From Azohydromonas caseinilytica (GTDB taxonomy: Bacteria; Pseudomonadota; Gammaproteobacteria; Burkholderiales; Burkholderiaceae_C): 64,000 nucleotides of DNA. The notes under the pieces are model-generated. The model was not told the origin of the DNA, did not search any database, and saw only the letters and a list, made by a program, of their open reading frames with translations. Within the stretch, counting starts at the first letter, position 1. The number at the start of each line of letters is the position of its first letter. This document shows positions 16,923 through 20,809 of this stretch, piece by piece. The stretch covers positions 62,001 through 126,000 of the forward strand of contig NZ_JABBFW010000015.1 of the NCBI RefSeq assembly GCF_012927045.1, written 5' to 3'. Position numbers and translations under genes: made by a program.

Positions 16923-16999
16923 TGGCAGGGGAGGAAGGACTCGAACCCTCGCATGTCGGAATCAAAATCCGATGCCTTAACCAACTTGGCGACTCCCCT
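16923..16999 (-). tRNA. tRNA-Gln (anticodon TTG)
   Basis: On the minus strand a full cloverleaf can be folded: acceptor AGGGGAG with CTCCCCT, D-arm GTCGCCAAG-TTGG, anticodon stem around loop TTTTGAT (anticodon TTG), T-arm GCGAGGGTTCGAGTCCTTC and an encoded CCA end. No integrase or repeated 3' end was seen, so it is not an obvious attachment site here. A -10-like TACAAT lies near 17160 on the same strand. Confidence 0.95.
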
Positions 17000-17663
17000 A
17001 CACCGATACCGGCTCACGCCGACACCTGAAAAGCTCCAGCTCGGTCGGACATTCCGGCGAATGCCGGCCCGAAGCCGACGCGACGTGCAGCCTGTACCGG
17101 CTGCAACCTCGCGAATGCGCATTGGAGGCAACCGAAGCTACAGATCGCTGGTGTGATCGCAATTGTATCACCTTTAGCATTTGCCTTCAGCAGGATGTCA
17201 TGGCGCGCGGGATTGCGTGGCAGCTGCTCAAGCCGCGTCTGGCTGTCTTCCTGGAGTGCCGGCGCTGCCCGAGCCTCGAACGTGGGCCGCGTCCTCCGGA
17301 GCTTGGGCAAGGTGGGCCGTTCTCGGGCAGCGAAACGTTGACGACGGCAACGATCCGCTTGTCTCTTACGGCGCGATGCGCCGGGGGCAGAAGGGTGTTG
17401 TGAACCGGTTGCTGAGGACGGCTCAGGACCGCTGCCCTTCAGCCCATGATCGTCGTGGCGCAGTGAGGAAAGTCATGTGACGCCGCCGTGCCGGCAGCGC
17501 ACAGTGCTTCTCAGTGTTGATGCCGGTGCCGGATCAGGATGACCTGACCCGCAGGCCGCGAGGCCCCGGCAACCCCGGGTGGCGCCACCGGTGCTGCAAC
17601 CTCGCAGTTGCCGCAGGGGCCGCCGTGATTCGCGCATGCCCATGCGCAGGAAAGGAGGAGCCC
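17000..17663. other. 664-base region upstream of tRNA-Gln and the MNIO locus
   Basis: No convincing gene. The first 170 bases should hold the tRNA-Gln promoter (minus strand GATACAAT near 17156-17163 is a plausible -10). The stretch 17170-17500 resembles decayed coding sequence without a recognisable product. The last part leads into the ribosome site AAAGGAGGAG of the peptide gene at 17664; its promoter was not identified. Confidence 0.45.
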
Positions 17664-17909
17664 ATGAAGCCCGATCGAGTCGTTGACATCTCGCTGATCA
17701 AGGACGCCGCGCAACCGACTCTGCGAGTCACGGTTCCGCGCGGCACGGCGCTCGCCGAGACGGTCAAGCTGCAGCCGATCATCTCGGACATTCTCGGCAA
17801 GCTCAAAGGCTGCCCGGCATGCACTTCGGGCATGCCCATCTGGATTCAGGAGCGCGAGGAGATCGAGAACATCGTGCGTGTCGACCTGGACCGCATGCAG
17901 CCGATCTGA
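17664..17909 (+). CDS. Candidate MNIO-modified precursor peptide with one CPAC motif
   Basis: 81 residues, no signal peptide. A very strong ribosome site (AAAGGAGGAG) lies 3-4 bases before the ATG at 17664, as expected for an abundant small protein. The only two cysteines are in GCPACTSGMPIW, about residues 49-61, followed by a charged C-terminus (EREEIENIVRVDLDRM). A DUF692/MNIO enzyme gene starts 11 bases after the stop and an HvfC-like partner follows, the standard order of MNIO RiPP loci, whose enzymes modify Cys, Asp or Asn residues of peptides. It is not a bufferin by sequence. That this is the substrate is inference; it could instead be a small CPxC redox protein. Confidence 0.6.
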   Translation: MKPDRVVDISLIKDAAQPTLRVTVPRGTALAETVKLQPIISDILGKLKGCPACTSGMPIWIQEREEIENIVRVDLDRMQPI

Positions 17910-17920
17910 ACGTCCGCCAC

Positions 17921-18853
17921 ATGAACGCCCACGCTTCGGACGCGGGCGTCGGGGTCATGTTCAACGGCGTCCTCTCGGACTTCCTGGACCGGCATCCCGA
18001 CGCGCCTGACTTCCTGTCGGTCATTCCGGAAAGGTTCTGGAACGACCTGGGGCGCCGTGCCGCGACGCGCTTCGTGCCCCTGCCCGACGAGGTCGGACTG
18101 CTCGACCGCCTGGCGGCGCGGTATCCCCTTGTTGCGCATGGCATAGGGTTGTCGATTGCGAGCGCATCGGCTTTCGATCTCGCCCATGTGCGTCAACTGG
18201 CGCAGTGGCATCGCCGCTACCGCTTTCGCTGGATCAGCGAGCACCTGAGCGCGGTTCGCGTGCACACGCGGATCACGCCCGACCACCACGCCGGGCTGGC
18301 GTTGCCTATCCCCTGGGACGACGACATGCTGCAGATGCTGTGCGAGCGCGTCTCGCAGGTACAGGACATCCTCGGCTGCCAACTGCTGCTCGAAAACGGT
18401 GTCGTGTACACGCCGGTGCCTGACACGGACATGAGCGAGGCGGAGTTCCTGCGCGCGCTCACGCGCCGGACCGGCTGCGCGCTCCTGCTGGACCTGCACA
18501 ACCTGTACGTGAACAGCGTCAACCTTGATTTGTCGGCGTTCGCCTTCATCGACGCGCTCGACCTTGGCGCGGTGCACGAAATCCACATCGCGGGCGGCAA
18601 CTGGCTCTACGGTGCGTATCTCGATTCGCACGCCGGGCCTTGCGCCGATGCGGTCTGGCCGCTGCTGTCGTACACGGCGCCGCGCTGTCCGAACCTGCGC
18701 GGTGTGACCTTCGAGTTCCACGAGTCGTACTACCCGCGGCTGGAGGTGGCTGGCGTGCTCGCCCAGCTCACCCGGGCGCGCAACGCCATGACCGGCAAGG
18801 AAGGAGAACAGACATGTCGCTCCAGGGCTTCCAGTGCGCCCTTGCCGACCTGA
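17921..18853 (+). CDS. DUF692 / MNIO family multinuclear iron oxidative enzyme
   Basis: 310 residues, TIM-barrel family of MbnB, TglH and BufB, which use a cluster of non-haem irons for peptide oxidation. The expected ligands are all visible: His73 in VAHGIGLS, Glu107-His108 in WISEHLS, a strand LLENGVVY (156-163), Asp191 and His193 in LLDLHNLYVNSVN, Glu220 and His222 in VHEIHIAGG, Asp235 and His237 in DSHAG, and Glu265 in VTFEFHES. The start ATG 17921 has no clear ribosome site, so translation probably depends on coupling with the peptide gene 11 bases earlier. The 3' end overlaps the partner gene by 40 bases. Confidence 0.85.
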   Translation: MNAHASDAGVGVMFNGVLSDFLDRHPDAPDFLSVIPERFWNDLGRRAATRFVPLPDEVGLLDRLAARYPLVAHGIGLSIASASAFDLAHVRQLAQWHRRYRFRWISEHLSAVRVHTRITPDHHAGLALPIPWDDDMLQMLCERVSQVQDILGCQLLLENGVVYTPVPDTDMSEAEFLRALTRRTGCALLLDLHNLYVNSVNLDLSAFAFIDALDLGAVHEIHIAGGNWLYGAYLDSHAGPCADAVWPLLSYTAPRCPNLRGVTFEFHESYYPRLEVAGVLAQLTRARNAMTGKEGEQTCRSRASSAPLPT

Positions 18854-19470
18854 TCGCCGATCCCCGCAAGTGCCTGCTGGCGCGGCACGCTCCGGCGCAG
18901 GCGCTGGCCGAATACGCGCTGACCGAACGGGAGCGTGCGCGTCTTGCGGCAATGGTCCGGGACAAGGGGATGTCGATCAACTGCACCTTGTTCCGCGTCA
19001 ACCGGCTGACACCGATCTACTCGGTGCTGCCCTTCACCTGCCGGCTGCTGGGCCCGCTGCTGACCGCCGAGCTGGATGCGTTCTGGGCGGCGTCGCAGGA
19101 CGCGACGCTGCAGTACCGGTGGGAAGCCTGGCGTTTCGGCACCTGGCTGCTCGACCGTATCGAAAGCGGCCAGGTGCCGCACGGGCCGTACGAGGACGCG
19201 ATCCGTTTCGAGCTCGCGTCCTACGATGCCCAGGCGCAACACCTGGACACCGCCGCCGCTCCTGAGCAAGGACGTCAGCGCGTGCTTTCGCTCCGGTACG
19301 ACCCCGGCCTGCTTTTCGATCCGGGCCTCGATGCCGCCGCGCTTCGCCCGCTCGAACAGCCGGTCACCGTCGTGCTCGATGCCAGCGGCGACGCGCTGGT
19401 GGTCCGGCGCATTGACGCCGTGCCGGAGGGCCGCTCGCATGGCTTGATGCAGCCGCAACTTCCTGCCTGA
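18814..19470 (+). CDS. HvfC/DUF2063-like partner of the MNIO enzyme
   Basis: 218 residues, cytosolic. The N-terminus (ALADLIADPRKCLL, then LTERERARLAAMV) looks like the small helical LigA/Nif11-like module; the middle (LDAFWAASQD, EAWRFGTWLLDRI, YEDAIRFELASYDAQ) and the C-terminal beta part (VLSLRYDPGLLFDP) follow the layout of TglI/HvfC partners that present precursor peptides to MNIO enzymes. AAGGAGAACAG precedes ATG 18814, inside the enzyme gene's last 40 bases. Assignment rests mainly on position and overall pattern, so the family name is moderately sure. Confidence 0.65.
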   Translation: MSLQGFQCALADLIADPRKCLLARHAPAQALAEYALTERERARLAAMVRDKGMSINCTLFRVNRLTPIYSVLPFTCRLLGPLLTAELDAFWAASQDATLQYRWEAWRFGTWLLDRIESGQVPHGPYEDAIRFELASYDAQAQHLDTAAAPEQGRQRVLSLRYDPGLLFDPGLDAAALRPLEQPVTVVLDASGDALVVRRIDAVPEGRSHGLMQPQLPA

Positions 19471-19717
19471 CGGCCCGGCGTTCTCCCGTTCCCGCGATCG
19501 CATCGCGCCGGCGGCGCACGAGATCGACCTGGTGGACGTGCTGAGCGCCGGGCTGCAGGCCAGCCCGGGCCTCAAGCTGGCGATCTGCGTACCGCGGCTG
19601 CCCGACTTCGTCGTGGCCCGGGCCAACCGGGTGCGCGCCGCGCTGGCACAACGCAAGCAGGCCATCGGGACGCTCGCCCTGCCGTACCGGCAGCGCGTGG
19701 CGGCCTTTGCACGATGA
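19471..19717 (+). pseudogene. Fragment resembling a phospholipase D-family C-terminal part
   Basis: A frame open from 19448 to the TGA at 19717 reads SRNFLPDGPAFSRSRD, then EIDLVDVLSAGLQASPGLKLAICVPRLPDF and a basic helix. The pattern (a list of allocated positions followed by LKLAICVPRLPDF) resembles the segment before the second HKD motif of PLD-like proteins, but no HKD motif, start codon or ribosome site is present. Best read as a remnant between the MNIO locus and the GntR gene; the family identification is weak. Confidence 0.35.
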
Positions 19718-19840
19718 CGAGACGAGCCCGTTCCGCAGGCTCGGCCGTGCCTGCGTAGCGGATTGCACCAACAGCCTATAAAGTGCGCTTTGTATCGGGC
19801 GACCGGCCTGCCGTCGCAGGCGTGCAATCCCTGACTGGCC

Positions 19841-20809
19841 ATGAAAAACCCTTCCCCTCCCACGCCTCCCGGCGGCATCGTTCCGGTCGTCGCCGGACGC
19901 GTGCTGGAACTGCTTACCACTGGCGGCTACGCGGTAGGCGACCGCATCACCGAGCAGTCCTTGGCTGACGCGCTGGGCGTTTCCCGCTCACCGGTGCGCA
20001 AGGCGCTGCAATACCTGGAGGCGCTGGGGGCGTTGAGCTCCAGCCCCAACCGGGGCTTCCAGGTCGCGCAGGACGCAAAGCGGCTGCGCAAGATCCAGAT
20101 CACCGACGAGGAGTCGGATGAGGCGATCTACATGCGCATCGTGGAAGACCGGCTCACGGAGGCCATCGACGAGGAGGTGTCGGAGGCCGAGCTGATGGAG
20201 CGGCACGGCCTGACGCGGCTGCAGGTGCAGCGGGTGCTCAACCGCATGGCGCGCGAGGGCCTGGCCGAGCGCAAGCCCGGCCGGGGCTGGCTGTTCCGGG
20301 CCGTGCTCAACACGGTGGACTCGCACCGCGAAAGCTACCGTTTCCGAATGATCATCGAGCCCGCCGCCATCCTGGAGCCGACCTTCCGGGTGGATCGCGC
20401 GCTGTTCGACAAGGTGCGCCACCAGCAGCAGATGCTGCTCGACGGCGGCATCGAGCGCTGGACGGCGGCCGAGCGCTTTCGCGCCGGGGCGGAGTTCCAC
20501 GAGGCGATCGTGGCCTGTGCCAACAACCGCTTCCTGCTCGACGCGCTGCGCAACGTGAACCAGCAGCGGCGCATCATCGAGTACCACTGCCAGACCAACT
20601 CGGCCGCGGACCGCGAGCGCATGCGGCGCCAGTGCGAAGAGCACCTTGCGCTGCTGGACCTCCTGGAGGCTGGTGAGCGCATGGAGGCCTCGCACCGGCT
20701 GCGCCAGCACCTCGACGTCGTGCGCGCCATCAAGACCGAGGACAAGGCACCGGCCACGCCGCAGAAGCGCACCCGCGGCAAGGACCTTGCCGTGGAGATC
20801 CACCTGTAG
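19841..20809 (+). CDS. GntR-family regulator with two winged helices and an FCD domain
   Basis: 322 residues. The first winged helix-turn-helix (about 15-76) has the GntR form: GDRITEQSLADALGVSRSPVRKALQYLEALG. A second, similar unit occupies about 96-161 (VSEAELMERHGLTRLQVQRVLNRMAREGL, then KPGRGWLF). An all-helical FCD effector domain follows (about 170-295; RMIIEPAAI, FHEAIVACANNRFL, EEHLALLDLLE). A TATAAAG lies about 65 bases before the ATG. It is upstream of and codirectional with the tetronate-type operon, and it is the likely reader of the motif TTTGTACTAAA found in both nearby promoters. FCD regulators usually respond to organic acids. Confidence 0.88.
   Translation: MKNPSPPTPPGGIVPVVAGRVLELLTTGGYAVGDRITEQSLADALGVSRSPVRKALQYLEALGALSSSPNRGFQVAQDAKRLRKIQITDEESDEAIYMRIVEDRLTEAIDEEVSEAELMERHGLTRLQVQRVLNRMAREGLAERKPGRGWLFRAVLNTVDSHRESYRFRMIIEPAAILEPTFRVDRALFDKVRHQQQMLLDGGIERWTAAERFRAGAEFHEAIVACANNRFLLDALRNVNQQRRIIEYHCQTNSAADRERMRRQCEEHLALLDLLEAGERMEASHRLRQHLDVVRAIKTEDKAPATPQKRTRGKDLAVEIHL

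Follow-up and report, generated by a model that had tools for sequence, protein, structure and literature searches.

Three consecutive genes on the + strand of the 64,000-nucleotide stretch of Azohydromonas caseinilytica DNA analysed here (the window) lie at 17664-19470 and encode an 81-aa peptide, an MNIO enzyme and a partner protein. They are predicted, with a probability that we put at about 60%, to form a maturation cassette in which the MNIO and its partner oxidise a conserved Cys of a small cytoplasmic protein. The locus is putatively of the MNIO-dependent RiPP type, with a precursor gene beside the MNIO gene, an arrangement conserved in relatives, and the family is a small clade rather than a one-off. 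What is new here, on the residues aligned, is an enzyme clade that carries the TglH-like motifs D-L-[HY]-N and H-x-A-G-G and appears to lack both the Asp base and the TglH-specific Asn.

The gene of the precursor, or putative substrate protein, spans 17664..17909 (+), an assignment supported by its Shine-Dalgarno sequence and by family conservation. Its 81-aa product has a single CxxC, within GCPACTSG, and no hydrophobic N-terminal stretch when inspected by eye. The codons of GCPACTSG (residues 49-56), the putative modification site, occupy 17808..17831 (+), as placed by the open reading frame and by conservation. The Shine-Dalgarno sequence (AAAGGAGG) forms a duplex of -11.6 kcal/mol; among all 735 ATGs in the window, the peptide's own included, 0.4% reach that strength. 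The MNIO gene (17921..18853, +; 310 aa) has no ribosome site of its own, since the duplex upstream of its ATG is +0.3 kcal/mol, and its translation is probably coupled to that of the peptide gene, whose stop codon lies 11 bases before the MNIO start. An alternative in-frame ATG is present at 17819; the start at 17921 was retained because similarity to the other members of the enzyme clade begins at residues 1-10 of that version. The partner gene (18814..19470, +; 218 aa) has a Shine-Dalgarno duplex of -8.8 kcal/mol and overlaps the MNIO gene by exactly 40 bases. Neither a sigma-70-like promoter nor an intrinsic terminator was found. The initial annotation had described a strongly translated peptide gene with one CPAC motif and no signal sequence, followed by an enzyme gene devoid of a ribosome site and overlapping its partner by 40 bases, and each of these features was recovered.

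The window peptide matched no Pfam or NCBIfam model, and direct searches with it (contigs of genomes, 299 family genomes and plasmids) gave no usable relative; the search of the 299 family genomes missed a true homologue in G597. Weak matches in 34 other family genomes were followed up by translating 11 loci, none of which was judged by eye to be a relative. Relatives were reached via the enzyme rather than the peptide. The enzyme search recovered the same three genes in a Proteobacteria MAG (G209; L007, the same stretch as L067), which encodes a 67-aa peptide with GCRPCLSG, an MNIO 41% identical to that of the window and a partner 41% identical over 116 aa. A two-row enzyme profile run against the 299 family genomes added eight further clade members. 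The peptides of the relatives are of type A, with GCRPCLSG (L007, L072, L073 and L074), type B, with GHPCLSG and one Cys in the loop (L075-L077), or type C, with GCAPCGLG (L078 and L079), and their identity to the window peptide is low (23-31%). In the ten-row peptide alignment, C53 of the window is the sole invariant Cys; C50 is present in the window and in types A and C and absent from type B, and the Pro-Ala of the window CPAC is replaced in relatives by RP, HP or AP. The stress that the initial annotation had laid on both CPAC cysteines is not borne out by type B, whose single loop Cys matches C53.

Membership of the peptide family was tested with leave-one-group-out profiles, each group being omitted in turn. 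When the window peptide was omitted from training, the profile scored it at 20.0 bits, as against at most 9.6 bits in 1938 scored shuffles, and among 9616 six-frame ORFs of the collected DNA it reached E 4.8e-4, with the best unrelated ORF at E 2.2. A moderate pass was obtained for type A (16.2-20.5 bits) and for type B (13.5-15.9 bits). The type C peptides failed (7.6-7.7 bits), so that their membership derives from the motif and the enzyme clade only. Plasmid searches with the peptides of three relatives gave either no match or one chance match in an otnI gene, and no match was found in viral contigs. A PDB profile match to 'CAP REPEAT' (E 3.9e-4, with no stretch passing alone) was discounted as a probable effect of composition. 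The structure model of the peptide (pLDDT 50) was too weak for a structure search and hints that the N-terminal half may fold. The available text of the MNIO literature (PMC12452194, PMC12636315, PMC10214503, PMC12257519 and PMC12668002) names no precursor with GCRPCLSG, GHPCLSG or CPACTSG, and such precursors are likewise unnamed in the accessible portions of further MNIO papers (PMC13419390, PMC10880893, PMC12636437 and PMC13060819).

A ten-row peptide profile matched in 10 of the 299 family genomes, in 5 of 45 genomes of one genus (one of them already counted) and, among 274 class genomes, in the window's own genome alone; the peptide family has so far been seen in one order, in searches within the class. 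In all 15 peptide-bearing genomes, G209 included, the peptide stands directly before a clade MNIO sequence, which is intact in 14 and collapsed by deletion in G653. At the G653 locus (L113, 7972-8278), the peptide is kept and MNIO residues 1-46 run into partner residues 154-215, a short fusion that reflects either decay or an assembly fault. Ten of the 15 genomes, again with G209, constitute no independent test because they were used to build the profile. The genomes outside the profile are G653, G1054, G1056, G1076 and G1088, and in four of these five the MNIO is intact and is followed by partner sequence that runs to the end of the retrieved DNA. Homologues occurring widely without DUF692 neighbours, which the initial annotation had named as evidence against its reading, were looked for, and the result did not refute that reading: in each of the 15 genomes above the peptide precedes clade MNIO sequence, collapsed in one. 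The profile had no match at 52 outgroup MNIO loci, where the flanks were ~1.5 kb for most.

A BLASTP comparison of 12 loci showed that genes shared beyond the three track genome kinship, and that none is clade-wide. At two of the loci (L117 and L118), a protein of 628-663 aa with weak transthyretin-like and Ig-type matches follows the type C partner; farther along, on the opposite strand, is an ABC ATPase gene. One clade MNIO, on a long branch (L006, L120; G316:C272), occurs without the peptide or a recognised partner on an 11.7-kb contig; it has Ser at the position of window ligand H237. It could be argued that the small protein is an accessory, metal or redox factor and that the true substrate of the enzyme is encoded elsewhere, given that its N-terminal half may fold according to the weak model, that no protease or exporter is common nearby and that the peptide is kept in one genome lacking an intact MNIO. 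Against this stand the invariant loop Cys, the strict position of the gene before the MNIO and the published pairing of signal-free precursors with PME-type 2 partners for putative MNIO substrates, and we consider an accessory role very unlikely.

The cassette lies within a stretch (17032..19777, no strand assigned) that contains all three genes and is unmatched in the compared DNA of three congeners (G001-G003), and the peptide is absent from all three of these genomes. To its left is a tRNA-Gln gene (16923-16999, - strand), around which ~112 bases match in each of the three congeners, the matches ending at 17031-17032. An SDR gene left of the tRNA is matched in G001 alone, on a different contig. 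To the right of the cassette are a GntR-type regulator and an Iso_dh gene, followed by what appears by eye to be an acid-sugar catabolic set. Around the regulator, similarity to the window starts only at 19778 in G001 and at 19853 in G002, and G003 has no counterpart of the regulator. The three cassette genes have a third-position GC content of 0.83-0.85, and the two genes that follow them have 0.91 and 0.95. On the strength of this lower GC and of the stretch unmatched in congeners, the cassette looks acquired, a reading drawn from few genomes and few genes. A 61-aa open frame at 19532-19717, past the partner gene and inside the same unmatched stretch, has no Pfam match.

The window enzyme belongs to the MNIO (DUF692) superfamily, which includes MbnB, TglH and ChrH: it passes the cut-off of PF05114 (201 bits against 25; E 2.5e-59; residues 16-275) and its iron ligands are conserved. 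Residues H73, H108, E158, D191, N194, H222, D235 and H237 align with H71, H107, E151, D184, N187, H216, D229 and H231 of TglH, whose ligand list was taken from the available part of the published description. In a weak second segment (2.9 bits), E265 falls opposite a Glu of 3BWW; all 11 clade rows have Glu at this position. The earlier claim of an MNIO with all expected iron ligands agrees with this alignment. The NCBIfam models for named enzymes all scored under their cut-offs, namely BufB (181 bits; cut-off 310), HvfB (149 bits; cut-off 360), ApyH (107 bits), ChrH (70.7 bits; cut-off 600) and MbnB (29 bits). The ChrH value bears on the proposal that the CPAC cysteines become a macrocycle and a heterocycle as in ChrA/DybA (CPACGMG, +10 or -4 Da). 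The window CPACTSG agrees with CPACGMG at 5 of 7 positions, and the available literature describes the processing of an embedded CPACGMMM in ArlA. Such chemistry is nevertheless highly improbable in view of the low ChrH score, the Pro-Ala that is not conserved in relatives, the type B loop with one Cys and the separate partner in place of the ChrH C-terminal domain.

At E 1e-20, MNIOs were detected in 194 of the 399 genomes of the order, and besides the window's own enzyme only L006 and L007 exceeded 200 bits; among 369 class genomes, three other MNIOs passed 1e-38, all of the outgroup kind. In a 63-row tree, assembled largely from matches to the window enzyme and without TglH, MbnB, ChrH and ApyH, the window enzyme, types A, B and C and L006 formed one branch (support 100/98) apart from the 52 others. 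Among the outgroup rows are L003 and records from plasmids in which the MNIO has DUF2282 or DoxX genes as neighbours. L003 (G000:C56:90340-91137) is the second MNIO of the window's own genome, belongs to the outgroup and scores 359 bits to PF05114; it is followed by a DUF2063-looking partner and then a response regulator, both named by eye.

The partner of the window matched no Pfam or NCBIfam model. Four of the ten family partners matched HvfC of NCBIfam (best 7.6e-8) and four of the ten matched DUF2063 weakly, and on these family profiles and the structure model the window protein may be described as a divergent DUF2063/HvfC relative. The initial annotation had called it HvfC-like, which can be upheld distantly for the family and finds no model match in the window protein itself. 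A search of PDB sequences with the partner profile returned nothing relevant. The two-row partner model (pLDDT 57) is helical for ~145 residues and continues in strands. When it was compared with 350,542 PDB chains by Foldseek, the top two matches were 8hi7_A and 8hci_A (E 4.7e-3 and 2.1e-2; TM 0.28-0.29), TglHI entries whose matched chains would be TglI by their length (268-269 aa, compared with 304 aa for TglH). Each match is weak alone, and it seems unlikely that two partner chains would top the structure list by chance. PMC12452194 reports, in the text available, that signal-free precursors correlate with PME-type 2 partners. Such partners give no Pfam DUF2063 match but resemble NGO1945 or TglI in structure, and the window partner is probably of this kind.

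The active site sets the clade apart from the other MNIOs. All 11 clade rows carry the motif D-L-[HY]-N and none of the 52 other MNIO rows does; among the latter, position 193 is Asn in 51 and Ala in one. Similarly, the residue after H-x-[AG]-G aligns as Gly in all 11 clade rows, compared with 2 of 52 others. An Asp two residues after the ligand Glu is present in 0 of 11 clade rows, which have H, F, Q, M or P instead, and four extra relatives outside the profile have E-L-F at the ligand Glu; all 52 other rows have E-[RW]-D. According to the accessible literature, FonB is proposed to use Asp249 as the catalytic base when it forms 5-thiooxazole, and the D249A variant leaves the peptide unmodified. 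We infer that Asp249 corresponds to the Glu+2 Asp because Phe250 follows it and E-R-D-F occurs in L068 and L069. TglH is described, in the text available, as having no residue like the MbnB Asp and as depending on Asn73, two residues past the first ligand His. The corresponding sequence in 11 of 11 clade rows is H-[GS]-[IVL], so that the equivalent of Asn73 is missing; H-G-V or H-G-L also occurs in many of the 52 other rows. Because the Glu+2 Asp and Asn73 are both missing, the clade would seem to fit neither the thiooxazole nor the TglH recipe.

These residues weigh on two further explanations. A bufferin/captophorin-like system would convert Cys to 5-thiooxazole (-4 Da each) and serve intracellular copper chelation. 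In its favour, no named enzyme model scores above BufB and HvfB, the partner family has a distant kinship with HvfC and the order precursor-MNIO-partner is that of bufABC as given in the available literature. The window peptide, however, has no Sec signal by eye, the enzyme sits in a separate clade and under both cut-offs, and a conserved DoxX-type neighbour is absent, as no further gene is common to the clade. With the inferred catalytic base also absent throughout the clade, standard 5-thiooxazole formation is improbable, the chemistry probably differs from it, and the bufferin-like reading as a whole is unlikely. A TglHI-like reaction would excise the beta-carbon of the conserved Cys (-14 Da) inside the protein. 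It would account for D-L-H-N and H-x-A-G-G, which the alignment shows to be common to the window enzyme and TglH, for the want of an MbnB-type Asp in both and for the best structural matches of the partner, but TglH acts on a C-terminal Cys, the one considered here is internal, and the essential Asn is missing in every clade row; we regard this reaction as quite unlikely. Overall, the residue pattern speaks against an unaltered version of thiooxazole formation, beta-carbon excision or ChrH-type ring formation.

Under the preferred reading, in which the MNIO and partner oxidise the conserved Cys, the strong ribosome site would drive synthesis of the small protein and the MNIO would follow by coupling. 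The partner, with a helical DUF2063-like part and a short RRE-like part, may hold the small protein by its N-terminal half and feed the GCxxCxSG loop into the iron site of the enzyme. There, invariant Cys53 would bind iron and be oxidised with O2 at the multi-iron site, and Cys50 may be used too. The product would be a modified protein, one that might bind soft metals or be redox-active; that it stays whole and in the cytoplasm is likely because there is no further clade-wide gene and no signal peptide, and no dedicated protease or exporter is apparent, again because no further gene is common to the clade. The layout of the genes, their families, the co-occurrence, the enzyme clade and its residue pattern are observed; the substrate role of the small protein, its modification site, the chemistry, its location and its function are predictions. 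Tentatively, and with rather less assurance, the clade may represent a third active-site class of Cys-modifying MNIOs, one that has neither the Asp base of the thiooxazole and oxazolone formers nor the Asn of TglH and places an undescribed modification on a single internal Cys. The bearer would be a folded protein that stays in the cytoplasm without secretion or trimming, a product resembling a cofactor rather than a peptide natural product.

MNIOs carry out very different reactions from the same iron site. A clade that keeps the iron ligands without either of the outcome-linked residues offers a direct test of what decides the reaction, and this compact three-gene system comes with natural substrates that have one Cys or two. 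Should the product remain intracellular as a whole protein, the use of MNIO chemistry would be widened beyond exported metal binders.

The kind of system found here, a small Cys protein with an MNIO and a partner and no signal peptide, is already known from the adjamnio families described in the available text of PMC12452194, in which adjamnio-1, -2 and -7 are signal-free putative MNIO precursor families. Like the window peptide, they lack a Sec signal and are encoded before the MNIO gene; adjamnio-7 has a CxxC, adjamnio-1 and -2 are paired with PME-type 2 partners and adjamnio-1 is exemplified by a Massilia protein. The window family, compared with them by published description, may itself be adjamnio-1, -2 or -7. 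The initial annotation's proposal of an uncharacterised MNIO RiPP locus stands for a signal-free Cys precursor outside Pfam and NCBIfam and gives way for the kind of locus, which is in print. Its view that the peptide is unlike other MNIO substrates does not hold, given signal-free CxxC precursors such as adjamnio-7 and, in the literature available, chryseobasin-type ChrA and DybA that end in CPACGMG. As far as alignment can tell, the protein family and the enzyme active site match no characterised member among those compared. With ChrAH and DybAH, the window system shares CPAC and a Gly three residues past the second Cys, but chryseobasin precursors have a C-terminal CPxCGxG, whereas CPACTSG is internal and some relatives have one Cys. 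With BufABC, HvfABC and FonABC (bufferins, oxazolins and captophorins), it shares gene order, the MNIO iron ligands and a distant HvfC kinship, and it differs from them in having no Sec signal, no DUF2282, no precursor of Cys-Lys or EGKCG type and no Glu+2 Asp. From TglAHI (pearlin/3-thiaglutamate), it differs in lacking an Asn73 equivalent and in the internal Cys of its encoded loop, compared with the C-terminal Cys of TglA, and it shares with that system a signal-free scaffold peptide, D-L-H-N, H-x-A-G-G and an active site without the MbnB-type Asp.
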